Shown here piece by piece: positions 43,381-51,137 of a DNA stretch of 64,000 bases. A program made the position numbers and the translations under genes. The stretch's first letter is position 1. Each line of letters opens with the position of its first letter. Origin of the DNA: Klebsiella pneumoniae (lineage in GTDB: Bacteria > Myxococcota_A > UBA796 > GCA-2862545); assembly GCA_945861065.1 (NCBI GenBank), contig CAMASI010000007.1, positions 1-64,000 on the forward strand. The letters run 5' to 3'. The notes beneath the pieces were generated by a model that did not search any database, was not told the DNA's origin, and was given only the letters and a program-made list of their open reading frames with translations.

Positions 43381-44046
43381 TTAGGTGGTGGCCAGGTTCC
43401 GGTGTCGCACGTCCTGATCATCCACGAGGAACACGACCAACTGCGCGACACGGACCGCATGATCCGCCATCCGTTGAACCTGACGCAACGAACTGGACAA
43501 CAGGAACGCACGATCTGCTTGGCCTGGCGCCACAGACGCTGCTGCCGCGAGTCGTGCCAGCCCCTGCCGGTGCAGGTGGTCCACCTCTTCGTCCCGTTCC
43601 ATGATGGCGCGAGCAAGGTTTGCGTCGTGGACCCCGAAGGCCGTCGTCGCCTGCCGAATCATCCCGACGGCTACCTGCGCCATGACTGGGAATTCGAGCC
43701 CCGGCTCCAGCCCCGGCGCCGTGCCGAGGTCAATCGCTCTGTCCGACAAGTTGACCGCGTGATCTCCGATTCGCTCTAGCTCCGTCACTACCTTGAGCGA
43801 ACAAACCAGAAAACGCAGCGCACTGCCCGACGCCGGATAACGAGCGAGTCGCGCCACCACGAGACGATCGATTTCCGTTTCCAGGTGGTCGAGTTCGACG
43901 TCGGCAACCGCAACCGATCGCGCCAAAACCAAGTCGCGTTCTGCGACGCCGCGGGCAGCGAGTCGGGCCATCGATTCGGCCCGCACACCCATGCGCAGCA
44001 CCAGCGACCGGATGTGGTCCAATTCCTCGTCGTGCGGCGTTACCAT
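43381..44046 (-). CDS. phoU: phosphate signalling protein PhoU
   Basis: PhoU represses the Pho response when phosphate is plentiful, acting with the Pst transporter and PhoR. The 221-residue all-helical protein has two repeated three-helix bundles with the metal-binding motif ELERIGDHAVNLSD in the first half and QVQRMADHAVRVAQ in the second. It follows phoR on the same strand, 8 bases after it. No pst genes are in the window. Its stop is 9 bases from the convergent helicase stop. Confidence 0.93.
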   Translation of the reverse strand: MVTPHDEELDHIRSLVLRMGVRAESMARLAARGVAERDLVLARSVAVADVELDHLETEIDRLVVARLARYPASGSALRFLVCSLKVVTELERIGDHAVNLSDRAIDLGTAPGLEPGLEFPVMAQVAVGMIRQATTAFGVHDANLARAIMERDEEVDHLHRQGLARLAAAASVAPGQADRAFLLSSSLRQVQRMADHAVRVAQLVVFLVDDQDVRHRNLATT

Positions 44047-44054
44047 ACACGCCG

Positions 44055-45239
44055 CTAACTCCGTTCACCTGCTCGCAGGATCAAACGAAACGTGCTGCCC
44101 TTTCCGGCCACGCTGTCGACCACAATCCGCCATCCACACGCGATCGCCAGATGTTTCACAATGGCGAGGCCAAGCCCGGTGCCGCCGGCAACCCGCGCGC
44201 GACCGTCGTCCACCCGGTAGAATCGCTCAAAAATGCGCTCCTGATGCGCCGCTTCAATGCCGATTCCGTCATCCGCGACCTCGATCCACACCTCCGCGCC
44301 GTCGCGGCGAGCCGTCAACCGAACGCGGCCCCCGGCGGGCGTGTAGCGGACAGCATTGGCCACCAAATTGGACACCGCCGTCGCCAGCGCGTCGGTCTGC
44401 ACGTACGCATACACCCCGGCCGGAAGGTCCACGTCAAAGTGCACACCCTTGTCGCGCGCCACGTCCATCCCGCCCCCTGCAGCCGTCAGCACGAGCGGGC
44501 CCACGGGGAGGACCTCAAGCGGCAGGTCTCGCCGTCGCATCTCAATCCGATGCAACCGCAACAGCGCCGAGAACAGGTCGCGCAACCGCTCGGCGTTTCG
44601 GTAGACGGCGTCCAGCATTTCGACGAGTGCGGGATCCATCCGTTGGCGATCGAGCAGTGCCGTCTCCGTGAACCCAAGAATCGCCGATAGCGGGGTTCTC
44701 AACTCGTGCGATACGTTGGCAACGAAATCCGTCCTGCTGCGCTCTGCCTCCGCCACCCGGGTCCGGTCCTCGACCACGACCGCCACCTGCCCCGACGGCA
44801 GCAGCGTCGGCCGCAACACCACGTCCAGCCGTTCACCCACAGCATCGCGGCCACGCAAATCGCCCCCGCGCGCCGCTTCGACCACGGCCACCAACTCGGG
44901 GGGCGGTCCGACCTGAAGCAGCGGGACACCAGCAACCGCAGACGAGAGACCCAGAACGGCGACCGCACGAGGGCTGGCTTGCACCACATTGCCGTCGGGC
45001 CCCACCCGAATGACGGCCAACTCGGTGTCGAACTGCCAATCCTGCACCACCACACGAACAGGTGTCGGTGGCTCGGTCCGCGGCTGAAATACCCGTGTGG
45101 GCTCCCGTGTCCTGGCGGCCGCAACGGCGGCGACGACTGCCAAAACGACCGGCCATGGCGTGTCCCACCACAACCCGACCCCCGTAAGGACGGCGATGAG
45201 CGCCAAAATCGTCCATTGCGCCCGCACCACCTGCGTCAC
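44055..45239 (-). CDS. phoR: PhoR-like sensor histidine kinase
   Basis: 394 residues: two short N-terminal membrane helices (about 9-45), a PAS-like domain (about 75-165), the HisKA H-box (FVANVSHELRTPLSAI), and the HATPase domain with N-box NLVANAVRYTP, G1 VADDGIGI and G2 GGTGLGLAI. The ATG overlaps the phoB stop (ATGA). The gene order phoB-phoR-phoU supports phosphate sensing. The signal-input mechanism is not evident from sequence. Confidence 0.92.
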   Translation of the reverse strand: MTQVVRAQWTILALIAVLTGVGLWWDTPWPVVLAVVAAVAAARTREPTRVFQPRTEPPTPVRVVVQDWQFDTELAVIRVGPDGNVVQASPRAVAVLGLSSAVAGVPLLQVGPPPELVAVVEAARGGDLRGRDAVGERLDVVLRPTLLPSGQVAVVVEDRTRVAEAERSRTDFVANVSHELRTPLSAILGFTETALLDRQRMDPALVEMLDAVYRNAERLRDLFSALLRLHRIEMRRRDLPLEVLPVGPLVLTAAGGGMDVARDKGVHFDVDLPAGVYAYVQTDALATAVSNLVANAVRYTPAGGRVRLTARRDGAEVWIEVADDGIGIEAAHQERIFERFYRVDDGRARVAGGTGLGLAIVKHLAIACGWRIVVDSVAGKGSTFRLILRAGERS

Positions 45240-45940
45240 GCCGAATCGGACTTGAACCGGTAGCCCACCCCGCGGACGGTCTCGACCCGAGAGCCAACCT
45301 CCTCACCCAGTTTTTCGCGAAGCCGCTTGACGTGGGTGTCTACGGTTCGGGTGACGATGTGAGGAGACATGTCCCATACGTCTCGCAACAAGGCAGGGCG
45401 GCCGACGACCCGACCGGCCCGGCTCGCCAAGACGAACAACAAACGAAACTCCGTCGCTGTGAGTCCCAGCTCGGCGCCATCGACAAAGGCTCTGTGCGCG
45501 CCGCTATCGATCCGCAGCGGACCAAATTCGAGGAGGCTCTCCGAAACTTGGGGCCGTTCATCGTGACGTCGAAGCACGGAGCGAATGCGCAGCATGAATT
45601 CGCGCATCGAAAACTGGCTTTTCACGACGTAATCGTCGGCCCCCACCTCGAATCCGACAACTCGGTCGATCTCGTCACCGCGCGCCGTCAGCATGATGAT
45701 GGGCACGGCCGCCGTTGTCGGAATCGCGCGCAAACGCCGACAAATTTCCGTGCCAGCCATGTCGGGAAGCATGAGGTCCAGCACAACGAGGGCCGGCATC
45801 GCTCGGGCCACGGCGGCCAGTGCTTCTGCGCCGGTAGCAGCGGTAGCCACCTGGAAACCCTCTTTCTGGAGGGCGAGCACCAACATACGACGAAGGTCGG
45901 GCTCATCATCGACGACGAGAACCAGCCGAGGCGGAACCAT
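45236..45940 (-). CDS. phoB: PhoB-like OmpR-family response regulator
   Basis: A 234-residue regulator with receiver domain (VLVVDDEPDL, phospho-acceptor Asp in VVLDLMLPDMAG) and a winged-helix DNA-binding domain ending VETVRGVGYRFKS. The usual Lys-Pro after beta-5 reads YVVKSQFS, so the Lys is kept but Pro is replaced by Ser-Gln. It is the first gene of the phoB-phoR-phoU set and is divergent from the metallopeptidase/barrel gene; no Pho box was identified by eye. Confidence 0.9.
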   Translation of the reverse strand: MVPPRLVLVVDDEPDLRRMLVLALQKEGFQVATAATGAEALAAVARAMPALVVLDLMLPDMAGTEICRRLRAIPTTAAVPIIMLTARGDEIDRVVGFEVGADDYVVKSQFSMREFMLRIRSVLRRHDERPQVSESLLEFGPLRIDSGAHRAFVDGAELGLTATEFRLLFVLASRAGRVVGRPALLRDVWDMSPHIVTRTVDTHVKRLREKLGEEVGSRVETVRGVGYRFKSDSA

Positions 45941-46020
45941 GGGTGGATGTCCTATCGCCTGCGCACGCGACCGCCAGCCAATCGCGCGGTGGGCTGCTAC
46001 AGCCCCGCCGGGAGTGCGGC

Positions 46021-49000
46021 GTGTTTGGTTGTTTGCTCGCTTTCATGCCGCCGGCGCTCGCCGCTTCGTACGACCCAGAACTCCGGTGGCGGACGATAAC
46101 GACAGAGCATTTTCATCTGCACTTTCATCAGGGCGAGGAACAACTCGCGGAGGAACTTTCCCACACCGCCGAGCGTGTATTTGACACGCTCGTCGAGGAA
46201 ATCGCATGGGACCCGCGCGGCCGCATCCACGTCATCATCGTAGACCGCACGGACCAATCGAACGGCTTTGCGTCCACCATTCCGTACAACGCCATCGTCA
46301 TCTATGCGACCGCGCCGATGCCCGACTCTAGCCTAAGCCTGTACGAGGACTGGACTACGGCACTGTTTACCCACGAACTGAGCCACATCCTTCATATCGA
46401 CAGCAACCATGCAATTGTGGCAGCGGCCCGCAAGGTGCTCGGCCGAGTGGCTACGACGCATCAGGCCTCTCCGCGGTGGATCATCGAGGGTTTCGCCACA
46501 TTTCAGGAGACGCGGCAGACCACAGGAGGTCGTGGCCGGGCACCGGCCGCAGAGATGGTGAAACGCACATCGGCGCTTCAGGACCCTTTTCCGCAGCTGG
46601 GCAACCTCGACGGGTTTCAGCCCGATGCACCCGGCGGCAACCTCCGCTACCTGTTTGGGCAGGATTTCATCCAATGGATCGCCGACCACCAGGGGGAACA
46701 GAGTTGGACCCGATGGATTCACCTGTACGGCGGACACGTTCCCTTTCTGCTTCCCACTCAAGCCACCTTTGGGCGATCCTTCCAATCCATGTACAAAGAT
46801 TGGAAGGCGGACGAGATCGCCGACGCATTGTCGGTCGCTGCCGACGTGCGCGCCGCCGGGGAGACCGAGAGCCGTCTGTTGTCGGACCCGGGCGCTTCTT
46901 GCAGCGCACCCGCGTTCTCTCCAGACGGCGATCATCTCGTGTGGAGCTGCTACGACAAGCGCAAGGGTAGCGCGATTTGGCGCACTGACGGTGACGGATA
47001 CGCGCCGGTCATCGAGCTCGACCGGCGCGGGGCCTCGCAATTCACTTGGCGTTCCGACAGCCGGGCCTTCGTGTACGCGGGTGTGCACATCGTCAATCAG
47101 TTCAACACATGGTCGGACGTGTACCTACACGTGCTTGGCGAAGAGGGAACGACAGCGCTGACGAGCGGCAGCCGTGCGAGGGATCCGGATTTCTCCCCTG
47201 ATGGCAGCCGTTTGTTGGTCGTGACCAACAAGGCACAAAACACGCAGCTGGAACGCCTCACCGTCGACCGTCGGCGGGAGGCACTCACGCACCGCACAGA
47301 CCACGCCGTCTTCGCGACGCCGCGGCATTCTCCCGACGGCAACGTCATTGCCGTCAGCGTGTGGGAGCATGGCGCTCGCGACCTGTGGCTCTACGATCCC
47401 GAAGGCAAACCGCTGCGCCGGCTGACCGCCGACCCCGCCATCGAGGCCGACCCCACGTGGTCTGCCGACGGCCACTGGTTGTACTTCACGTCGGATCGAT
47501 CGGGCATCCCTAACGTGTACGCCATCGACATCGCCACGGAGCATTTGTGGCAGGTCACCAACGTCGTCACAGGCGCCGCCAAACCATCGCTTCGCGCCGA
47601 CGGTAAGCTGCTCGCGTGGCAAGAATACTCGGTGGATGGGTGGCAAATCCGAGCCATGGACGTGGATTCATCGCTCTTTTTGGACCGAGGCGTCCTGCCC
47701 CAACCCGTCCACTATGGACCGGCCACCGCGAATCTCATCACGTCCACAAGGCAACCGGCCGCGCCCGAATCACTGGCCTGGGTTGGAGAGCCGTCCAAGA
47801 CGCGGAAACCCTTCGACCTCGGGAACGCCGACCCGTACGGCCAAGCCCCACCAGAGTCGGTCGACAGCTTCGATGATGCGCATGTCAGCGACGTCTTCGG
47901 CGAGGAGGCCGACTATCCGTTCACGTTCGCGCCCCACCGATACCGACCCCTTCCCGGCCTGTTGCCCCGGTACATTCTGCCCTGGTTTCAGTCTACGCCG
48001 CACGCTCCGAGCGATCCCTGGGCTTTCACCTGCATCGATCCAGTGTGGTTCTGCTCCGGCGTGCAGGCCAACATCGCGACGGGCGCGGCGGACCCCCTGC
48101 GACACGCATCCTGGGGAATCAACGCCTCGTACCGGACGGATGCGGCGGCCGGGGGCGGCAGCGCCGGCTTTGTGTGGAACCGCTACTTGCCGGTTGTGGC
48201 CATTGGCGGAAGCACGCTACCCGTCGCCGCAGCCAATCTCTTATTCGTCGACCCAGCGGCGCCCGTGGACGAAAATGGCGACCTGCTCCTCTATGCAACG
48301 GATCCAGCCACACTCTACTACGAGCGGCGAAACACCGGCTATGCGCAGGTTTCTTTCCCGTACCGCCTTCGCAGCACGCTGTTTGGCAGGTACTCGATGA
48401 CCGAACGCAAAGAGCTCGACCCTCTGCCGAAGGACGTTTACCTTCCGCTCGTTCCGCTCCGCGGCACACAAGGGGCGCTGAGCGCGGGTTGGCGATTCGC
48501 GACCTCAGAGCAGACGCCGTACGCCATCAGCACAGAGAACGGCCGTGTCACCAGCGTCGTCGCGAGCGTCTTGACCCCCTGGCTCGGCAGCTTTGTGCAA
48601 GCAGAAGACGGGTCCTCCGTGCCGCTCACCCAAGTCCAACTCACCGCAGACGTGCGCGAATATGTGGTGAATCCGTGGATTCCGAACCACGTCTTTGCCT
48701 TTCAGGGGGGCGTTGGACTCGCTGTCGGAGGCACGCAATACCTCGGCAACTACCAACTCGGCGGCAGCTTTGGCGACAGCGCTTTTTACGTCACGCCCGA
48801 CGAGTTTCGAATGCTGCGCGGCTACCCGTTCGCCTACGACGCCGGCGACTTGTATTGGCTTGGAACGGCCGAGTACCGCGCGCCGCTATTGCGCTTCAAT
48901 CGAGGCTTTGGGACGGTACCGGTCTTCGTGCGCGACCTCAGCATCGCCGCATTCGTAGACGTCGGCAATGCCTTCGTGAACCCGACCGCTGGCACAGGGC

Positions 49001-49194
49001 TTCCGATCACAGCAGCCGCGTTGGGCGAGGAGGCGTTCGGCGACCCCCTCATCGGCGTCGGCGCAGAGGTCACCCTTCGCACCGTGTTGTTGTGGGGCGC
49101 AGGGCTGGACGGGCGCGCCGGCGTTGCCGTTCCCGCCACCTCCATCGACAGCCATGCGCCGGTGCCCTACCTCCAACTCGGAGGTTCGTTCTGA
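46021..49194 (+). CDS. zinc metallopeptidase - TolB-like propeller - outer-membrane barrel protein
   Basis: The 1057-residue protein combines three parts. A signal peptide (FGCLLAFMPPALAA) is followed by a peptidase-MA-like domain with HELSH (about 118-122) and a downstream Glu in RWIIEGFATF (about 156), the gluzincin pattern. A six-bladed WD40/PD40 propeller follows (about 290-610), with FSPDGDHLVWSCYDK, FSPDGSRLLVV and WSADGHWLYFTSDRSG. The C-terminal ~400 residues are a beta-barrel with the Omp85-type motif FRMLRGYPFAYDAG and a terminal Phe (LQLGGSF). GTG at 46021 has GGAG 6 nt upstream. It overlaps the lytic transglycosylase gene. Cleavage of surface or periplasmic proteins is a possibility only. 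Confidence 0.82.
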   Translation: MFGCLLAFMPPALAASYDPELRWRTITTEHFHLHFHQGEEQLAEELSHTAERVFDTLVEEIAWDPRGRIHVIIVDRTDQSNGFASTIPYNAIVIYATAPMPDSSLSLYEDWTTALFTHELSHILHIDSNHAIVAAARKVLGRVATTHQASPRWIIEGFATFQETRQTTGGRGRAPAAEMVKRTSALQDPFPQLGNLDGFQPDAPGGNLRYLFGQDFIQWIADHQGEQSWTRWIHLYGGHVPFLLPTQATFGRSFQSMYKDWKADEIADALSVAADVRAAGETESRLLSDPGASCSAPAFSPDGDHLVWSCYDKRKGSAIWRTDGDGYAPVIELDRRGASQFTWRSDSRAFVYAGVHIVNQFNTWSDVYLHVLGEEGTTALTSGSRARDPDFSPDGSRLLVVTNKAQNTQLERLTVDRRREALTHRTDHAVFATPRHSPDGNVIAVSVWEHGARDLWLYDPEGKPLRRLTADPAIEADPTWSADGHWLYFTSDRSGIPNVYAIDIATEHLWQVTNVVTGAAKPSLRADGKLLAWQEYSVDGWQIRAMDVDSSLFLDRGVLPQPVHYGPATANLITSTRQPAAPESLAWVGEPSKTRKPFDLGNADPYGQAPPESVDSFDDAHVSDVFGEEADYPFTFAPHRYRPLPGLLPRYILPWFQSTPHAPSDPWAFTCIDPVWFCSGVQANIATGAADPLRHASWGINASYRTDAAAGGGSAGFVWNRYLPVVAIGGSTLPVAAANLLFVDPAAPVDENGDLLLYATDPATLYYERRNTGYAQVSFPYRLRSTLFGRYSMTERKELDPLPKDVYLPLVPLRGTQGALSAGWRFATSEQTPYAISTENGRVTSVVASVLTPWLGSFVQAEDGSSVPLTQVQLTADVREYVVNPWIPNHVFAFQGGVGLAVGGTQYLGNYQLGGSFGDSAFYVTPDEFRMLRGYPFAYDAGDLYWLGTAEYRAPLLRFNRGFGTVPVFVRDLSIAAFVDVGNAFVNPTAGTGLPITAAALGEEAFGDPLIGVGAEVTLRTVLLWGAGLDGRAGVAVPATSIDSHAPVPYLQLGGSF

Positions 49195-51137
49195 TCGTTT
49201 TCCTGTGGGCGGTTCGCTGTTTCGCCAGTGACGCAGACGCTGTCGCATTGGGCGACTGTGGTCGAGCGCGCGCGGCGCTCACGTCCACAGACACCGACGC
49301 CGATCGGCTGGCCGCCGCACGCTGCGCACTGGACCTGGGCCGGCCAGAGGACGCCCTTGCCGACCTCCGCGGCGTCTCCGGCTTCAGCGCATGGGTCGCA
49401 TGGATCCGACTCAAGGCACTCGTAGACCTGCAACGGTGGGAAGAGGCGCTGTCGGTGGACATTTCCGAACTGCCGACGTCGGCAAAGGACGCGCTTGAGG
49501 TCGAACGAGGCCGGGCTCAGGGCGCCTTAGGCCGGCCGACCCCCTGGTTGGAGGCCCACACCGATCGGTCGGACGCACGGTTCTACGCCGCAAGCGCCGC
49601 CGCACAACGTGGCGACTCTGTCACCGCGCGCCGTCTGTGGCTGCAAGGGTGGGCAGATGCAAGTCTCGGGGGTTGGGACCAGCGTGCCGCCGAATCGCTC
49701 GCAGGCCTCGGAACCTCGGTCGCTGACGTCCAGAACGTGGACGTCCGCGCCGCCGCCCGTACCCGCGTCTCCTCCCTGAGTCAGGCGGACCGCAACATCG
49801 AAGCGCTAGCGCTGCTGGAGTCACTCTCGCCCAGTCCCGACGTTGCCCAGGCGGCTCGCTACGCGCGCCTCGCCACAGCGGCCAAGGCCTACCCAAAGGC
49901 AATCGATTGGTGGACGGTCGCCCACGGCCCTGCAGCGAGCGCCACCGCTGGGCCGAAGGACCTGTTCGATCATGCGCTTACCTACGCCCGCGCCGACGAC
50001 TACGAAAACGCAGCGGTCGTCTATCGTCGACTCATGGCACAACACCCAGCGACCGATGAAGCGGAATTCGCATCGTTTAAGCTCGGGTATATGCTTTGGG
50101 ACCGAGGAGATTGCGCCGCAGCAATCCCCTTGCTCCTAGACGTCAAAGGCAGCCACCTTGACGAAGCGTTGTGGTTTGCCGGACGCTGTCGTTGGCGGGC
50201 GGGCGATCAGCCCGGCGCTATCGAACTCATGGGTCGCCTGCAGCGGGAAACACCCCGATCGACCTTGGTCGCCGGCGCGGCCTACTGGACTGCCAGGGGA
50301 AAACCCGAAGGTCCTGAGCGCGCCGAAGCGTTGCGATCCGTCCGGTCCCGCTGGCCTGTCTCCCTTTGGGCGTGGTTCATTCCCTCGGGTCCAAACAAAC
50401 CCGCCCGGAACTCTGTCCCGATCCCCCTTCCCGCGGAGCTAGCCGAACAGCCGACCGTTCAGCGCGTCTTAGCCCTACGTGACGCGGGCCTTCTCGATTG
50501 GGCAGCGACGGAACTGCGATCCGTGCGCTGGACCGGCAGCGCCGATCCGCTCCCCGTCGCTTCTCTTCGATTTTCGGTGGGGGAGTACGCCAGCGCCCGA
50601 AAACTCGCTCAACCCGCCTGCTCCGACCCGAGGGCTAAGGCGTTGTGCAGCCCGTTACCGGAACGCGACTTGGTCAGCCGGGTCGCCAAAGAACACGGCC
50701 TGGACCCAGTCCTTGCTTGGGGCGTCATGGAAGCCGAATCAAGCCTGGACCCGAGCGTCACGAGCCCCGTGGGCGCGAGAGGACTCATGCAGCTCATGCC
50801 GACCGTAGCGAAGTCATTGCATGAGGCGCTCATGCCTGGCACGCCATTTGAGCCCGATCGCCTCTACCAAGGGCGATACAATGCTTGGTTGGGGACGTCG
50901 GAGTTGGGACGACTCCAAAACAGGTACAAAACACATCTCGGGGGCACTTCCGCGCCTGCCGTTGTCGCCGCGTACAATGCCGGCACAGACGCAGTGGACC
51001 GCTGGCTCGTTGCGTCAGACGGTGATCCCGCCTCCTTCGCTGACGACATCCCGTGGACTGAGACCCGGCGCTACGTGCGCCGCGTGCTGAGCGTCGCCTT
51101 GGACGTACGCCGCGTGTGGGGTCTCCCAGCGCCGTGA
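49191..51137 (+). CDS. Slt70-type lytic transglycosylase
   Basis: The enzyme cleaves the glycan strand of peptidoglycan to 1,6-anhydro products. The 648-residue protein has a superhelical N-terminal part and the C-terminal goose-lysozyme-like domain: catalytic Glu in GVMEAESSLDPSVTS, then VGARGLMQLMP and PAVVAAYNAGTDAV. No ATG, GTG or TTG gives a signal peptide; CTG at 49191 (GGAGG 6 nt upstream, overlapping the previous stop as CTGA) does, giving IVFLWAVRCFA. Start is inferred on that basis. It is coupled to the peptidase-propeller-barrel gene. Confidence 0.85.
   Translation: MIVFLWAVRCFASDADAVALGDCGRARAALTSTDTDADRLAAARCALDLGRPEDALADLRGVSGFSAWVAWIRLKALVDLQRWEEALSVDISELPTSAKDALEVERGRAQGALGRPTPWLEAHTDRSDARFYAASAAAQRGDSVTARRLWLQGWADASLGGWDQRAAESLAGLGTSVADVQNVDVRAAARTRVSSLSQADRNIEALALLESLSPSPDVAQAARYARLATAAKAYPKAIDWWTVAHGPAASATAGPKDLFDHALTYARADDYENAAVVYRRLMAQHPATDEAEFASFKLGYMLWDRGDCAAAIPLLLDVKGSHLDEALWFAGRCRWRAGDQPGAIELMGRLQRETPRSTLVAGAAYWTARGKPEGPERAEALRSVRSRWPVSLWAWFIPSGPNKPARNSVPIPLPAELAEQPTVQRVLALRDAGLLDWAATELRSVRWTGSADPLPVASLRFSVGEYASARKLAQPACSDPRAKALCSPLPERDLVSRVAKEHGLDPVLAWGVMEAESSLDPSVTSPVGARGLMQLMPTVAKSLHEALMPGTPFEPDRLYQGRYNAWLGTSELGRLQNRYKTHLGGTSAPAVVAAYNAGTDAVDRWLVASDGDPASFADDIPWTETRRYVRRVLSVALDVRRVWGLPAP

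Follow-up and report, generated by a model that had tools for sequence, protein, structure and literature searches.

An HExxH peptidase-like domain, a TolB-like propeller and an Omp85-type barrel combined in one predicted outer-membrane protein

One gene in the window (the whole stretch of 64,000 nucleotides analyzed here) appeared to join a metallopeptidase, a beta-propeller and an outer-membrane barrel in one polypeptide. This raises the question of whether the combination is real and, if so, what such a protein would do in the cell envelope. Our preferred reading, which we put forward with moderate confidence, is that its own Omp85 barrel anchors a zinc peptidase at the outer membrane on the periplasmic side, where it probably carries out housekeeping proteolysis.

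Gene and domain layout

The gene lies in an open frame that spans positions 45943 to 49194 of the plus strand. We chose GTG 46021 as its start because this agrees with the start of a relative (L010), which begins MFRSLLATMG at the same place. The signal peptide predicted from this codon has an n-region without a positively charged residue; starting from the upstream GTG at 45943 would give 26 more amino acids at the N terminus, RR included. The features of the locus are as follows.

46010 to 46014, plus strand: probable ribosome-binding site GGGAG, 6 nt before GTG 46021 (sequence)
46021 to 49194, plus strand: whole gene of the peptidase-propeller-Omp85 barrel protein (ORF list; 1057 aa, GTG start, TGA stop)
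46021 to 46062, plus strand: putative signal peptide MFGCLLAFMPPALA followed by AS (inferred from sequence; weak Sec signal, short hydrophobic leader ending ALA/AS)
46069 to 46860, plus strand: gluzincin-like (clan MA) metallopeptidase domain (weak clan-MA family matches; M1/M61 folds by Foldseek, weak)
46372 to 46386, plus strand: HELSH (HExxH), residues 118 to 122 (H, E and H invariant in the 57-row alignment)
46486 to 46488, plus strand: E156 in WIIEG, 33 residues downstream of HExxH and probably the third zinc ligand (invariant in the 57-row alignment)
46879 to 47661, plus strand: TolB-like PD40 beta-propeller, about residues 287 to 547 (PD40 E = 1.8e-18; TolB by profile and Foldseek)
47662 to 48045, plus strand: Pro/Ala-rich linker in place of POTRA (low pLDDT; no POTRA match on the contig)
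48052 to 49191, plus strand: C-terminal Omp85-type barrel (PF01103 in the family; BamA structure match; predicted strands)
48760 to 48822, plus strand: Omp85 motif G914-G915 ... FRML-R933-G934-YPF (GG and RG invariant in the 57-row alignment)
48958 to 48966, plus strand: Omp85 motif D980-V-G982 (93 to 96% conserved)
49191 to 51137, plus strand: downstream gene for a TPR + SLT lytic transglycosylase (Pfam SLT, 2.4e-18; overlaps the stop codon), a neighbor outside the conserved system

The 1057-residue product thus runs from the leader through the gluzincin-like domain, the PD40 propeller and the linker to the Omp85 barrel, and its last residue is phenylalanine. In the window protein alone, PD40 was the sole Pfam domain above threshold (E = 1.8e-18), with peptidase and barrel below the Pfam thresholds; at the family level, both were clear. 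Because the same order was found uninterrupted in dozens of independent genomes, an assembly or annotation artifact could be ruled out as the source of the fusion. A chance fusion is also unlikely, since relatives throughout the phylum keep the protease active site almost without exception. The architecture originally proposed for this locus in a preliminary description, three domains in one exported polypeptide, therefore holds, given the 1057-residue ORF and the domain searches on the family.

Peptidase site, propeller and barrel across the family

Relatives are widespread. With a single query and a threshold of E ≤ 1e-30, matches were found in 237/379 sampled genomes of the same phylum (167/237 among the high-quality ones), and a family profile found members in 3 of 8 genomes that had no single-query match. 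A second, very small phylum yielded matches in 5/5 genomes, and several of its members carry HExxH, PxWxxEG and the RGY motif. The family is mostly present as one gene per genome, and a scan of viral contigs for relatives found none.

HExxH and the downstream Glu were both present in 98 of the 100 homologues with a complete peptidase domain, and the motif is therefore not a chance match. Of the 97 members measured, 88 had a spacing of 33 residues between the two, and the invariant positions of the first 57-row alignment included H118, E119, H122, E156, G157, A159, E163, G170 and R171. Mean column identity reached 51% in the peptidase domain versus 31% in the barrel, indicating that the catalytic part is under the strongest constraint; overall, distant family members share only about 28 to 30% identity. 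The conservation check that had been suggested for HExxH thus came out in favor of the motif, its two exceptions being paralogous second copies.

Both of these paralogs (L144 in G174:C99 and L148 in G242:C81) are full length and have lost HExxH, which is replaced by SSQIARI and ATHIARL, respectively, as well as the third-ligand Glu. Their genomes each hold another copy with HExxH. By their sequences they are apparent pseudoproteases, and some members of the family therefore do something noncatalytic. In another group (f34; L131, L132, L134, L135 and L138), HExxH is kept in the main copy and the motif search did not find RG(Y/F). In the alignment, LHAYP or MHGYP stands at its position in two members, and L138 is cut before this region. 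The genome of L006 (PKDJ MAG) additionally encodes a 929-aa paralog (L149) with peptidase and propeller, in which the family model did not detect a barrel.

The peptidase domain could be placed in a clan, without a family, because members match several clan-MA families weakly. Among 47 members, weak Pfam matches fell on M48 (11 members, best E = 3.8e-5), DUF1570 (10), Peptidase_MA_2 (9), BSP (6), M61 (4) and M9 (4), that is, on six families of HExxH peptidases or peptidase-like domains. The window protein matched no named peptidase family above the curated cut-off, and membership in M48, the family of BepA, was rejected at a score of 13 to 17 bits versus a cut-off of 20.3. A profile of the domain gave no significant match in the PDB. 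In a model of the isolated domain (pLDDT 62), two successive helices carry HExxH and the Glu, respectively. The top 40 or so Foldseek matches to this model were nearly all M1/M61-type aminopeptidases, although weak (best E = 3.9e-3, TM about 0.3). Taken at the clan level, these matches and motifs suggest that the N-terminal domain belongs to the gluzincins of clan MA, with proteolysis as its predicted activity; H118, H122 and E156 would serve as zinc ligands and E119 as the general base.

The propeller profile matched TolB structures with an E value of 5e-49, and TolB was also matched by Foldseek with the whole-protein model (E = 6.7e-12; pLDDT 58). Since the whole-protein matches were dominated by the propeller, they are uninformative on the peptidase and the barrel. 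The linker that follows has conserved Y641 and P649 close to its end. At least one POTRA is typical of the Omp85 superfamily but not universal; POTRA (PF07244) gave no match at this locus or on its contig, and it does match BamA and two further Omp85 genes that the genome encodes apart from the fusion gene. A resemblance to PorE of the T9SS (NCBIfam, E = 0.011) was rejected.

Omp85 barrels are closed and 16-stranded. In the whole-protein model, a low-confidence one, the C-terminal part consists of beta structure throughout and shows about 15 long strands, as obtained in the structure prediction that had been proposed as a check. Pfam Omp85 (PF01103) matched 25 of 47 family members (best E = 4.3e-9), a level that the window sequence by itself does not reach, and the barrel profile aligned with the BamA structure 8xnb over nearly 300 residues (E = 8.7e-11). 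GG, RG, EYR and DxG are the barrel motifs conserved across the family. Judged by PF01103 in family members and by the RG(Y/F) and DxG motifs, the barrel is a member of the Omp85 superfamily, and the Omp85 identity first read from FRMLRGYPF is thereby borne out.

Proposed mechanism, gene neighborhood and alternative explanations

According to the reading that we prefer, the protein would be exported by Sec, after which its C-terminal Omp85-type barrel would insert into the outer membrane. In the canonical Omp85 topology, N-terminal domains lie in the periplasm. The enzyme domain of PlpD, another enzyme-Omp85 fusion, also stays in the periplasm (PMC11116518). Because of this topology and this precedent, peptidase and propeller would be expected to hang in the periplasm, against the inner face of the outer membrane, where other Omp85 proteins have POTRA, and this is also the side to which they had been assigned at the outset. 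The propeller would most likely present or gate substrates, or dock the protein to Tol-Pal, BAM or similar partners. As its most probable task, the protein would clear or mature misassembled outer-membrane or envelope proteins, comparable to the action of BepA on the BAM complex but within one polypeptide, and a role in the quality control of the envelope or of outer-membrane proteins is plausible on this analysis.

Given an active site kept in 98/100 homologues and an Omp85 barrel, the self-anchored protease of the preliminary description appears to be the best reading. The f34 group, whose main copy keeps HExxH while RG(Y/F) is altered, points in the same direction, whereas the missing above-threshold match of the window's peptidase domain to a known family, the low pLDDT values (58 and 62), the two inactive-site paralogs and the uncharged n-region of the signal peptide point against it. 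The genome encodes DegP/HtrA-type proteases, and its sole M48 match is of the lipoprotein type and resembles LoiP. A search of this genome, which is about 91% complete, found no BepA-like M48, so that BepA may nevertheless be present. No conserved neighbor tied the family gene to a BAM or quality-control regulon. A more far-reaching proposal, which we advance only tentatively, is that an undescribed clan-MA family fused to propeller and Omp85 constitutes a self-contained outer-membrane protease in most of the phylum and replaces BepA-type quality control there, with a pseudoprotease copy in some lineages.

The gene for the lytic transglycosylase overlaps the stop codon of the fusion gene at CTGA (49191 to 49194). 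No ATG, GTG or TTG start for it was found at the overlap, and its start is likely the CTG that overlaps TGA. An SLT gene lies directly downstream in many relatives of the window's own family and in some of its own order; in other relatives of these two groups it is distant or missing. This confinement to the own family and order makes the link to SLT a local arrangement. A subset of loci elsewhere in the phylum shares an upstream FHA gene and downstream pyrH/tsf-type genes. In L042, L049, L052, L057, L058 and L060, pyrH/tsf-type genes are found close to the family gene, and a gene with an FHA domain lies upstream of it in the opposite orientation. Neighbor clustering was noisy owing to shadow frames inside the family gene, and only the FHA and pyrH/tsf clusters were used. 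On the other side of the fusion gene, 80 bp upstream, a divergent PhoU/histidine kinase/response-regulator cluster occupies 43381 to 45940 on the minus strand; the kinase and regulator also adjoin the family gene in the close relatives L006, L007, L009, L072 and L073.

Translational coupling to the transglycosylase gene had originally suggested an envelope-remodeling pair. On this explanation, which the overlap and the recurring adjacency favor, the fusion protein would be a peptidoglycan- or lipoprotein-processing enzyme acting with the transglycosylase. Several members of the own order have no adjacent SLT, however, and about 31 loci of the family gene from other parts of the phylum showed no neighboring SLT match; some of these loci have the FHA and pyrH/tsf-type neighbors. 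Functional pairing as a general feature was rejected on these grounds, and we regard the remodeling pair, which finds no support beyond the own order, as very improbable. The order of an N-terminal enzyme and a C-terminal barrel also recalls that of autotransporters, and a protease displayed on the surface or secreted via its own barrel, for instance for predation or nutrient degradation, is an explanation that the history of PlpD brings to mind, since PlpD was at first thought to work that way (PMC4104836). Its enzyme domain nevertheless turned out to be periplasmic (PMC11116518). Moreover, crossing would involve two folded domains of about 530 residues, and a broadly conserved gene that mostly occurs once per genome fits a housekeeping role better than variable cargo, so that surface display or secretion seems improbable.

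A better-founded but still unlikely explanation is that the protein is an Omp85 assembly or translocation factor with a BamB-like propeller, in effect a BamA+BamB fusion, in which the peptidase is minor or regulatory. Heinz and Lithgow described WD40-Omp85 proteins as resembling such a fusion in 2014 (PMC4104836), the Omp85 motifs are kept in the barrel, and the two paralogs without HExxH retain propeller and barrel. Yet conservation is higher in the catalytic domain, it is RG(Y/F) and not HExxH that is altered in the f34 group, and no POTRA was found at the locus.

Relation to known systems

Our literature search found no characterized member of the family and no paper on PD40 with HEXXH and the outer membrane or on PD40 with Omp85. 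PF00149, which we take to be a calcineurin-like phosphoesterase domain and not an HExxH peptidase, differs from the N-terminal domain of the window protein. It is this domain that defines the "Metallo" subfamily of Omp85 proteins, which is likewise called Omp85-metalloprotease (PMC4104836).

Among better-known proteins, the patatin-Omp85 PlpD likewise carries an N-terminal enzyme on an Omp85 barrel and keeps it in the periplasm, but it is a lipase with POTRA, whereas the window protein is a predicted protease with a propeller. BepA shares HExxH and is a periplasmic protease at the outer membrane that works on a barrel protein, a substrate of BAM (PMC8423444). It differs in being a member of M48 without a fused barrel, while the window protein would be self-anchored and falls outside M48. 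TolB has the same type of PD40 propeller (profile E = 5e-49) but is a soluble partner of Pal with neither peptidase nor barrel.

The closest relation is to the WD40-Omp85 subfamily, which was recognized in 2014 (Heinz and Lithgow, PMC4104836) and listed as not well characterized in a 2024 paper (PMC11116518). The two have in common a TolB-like propeller that precedes an Omp85 barrel and the lack of POTRA, and the window protein indeed has its propeller directly N-terminal to the barrel. It differs by an extra conserved HExxH peptidase domain ahead of the propeller; for such a domain in WD40-Omp85 proteins, no report was found in a search that covered few subscription papers and the 2014 article without its supplements. 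The propeller and Omp85 part thus appears to be already known as WD40-Omp85, with the N-terminal peptidase as the added element. At least in this phylum, a near-invariant protease site would supply WD40-Omp85-type proteins with a specific function that can be put to the test, and the natural pseudoprotease copies offer a built-in comparison. If this is true, the role of this Omp85 protein would be degradation or processing instead of assembly.
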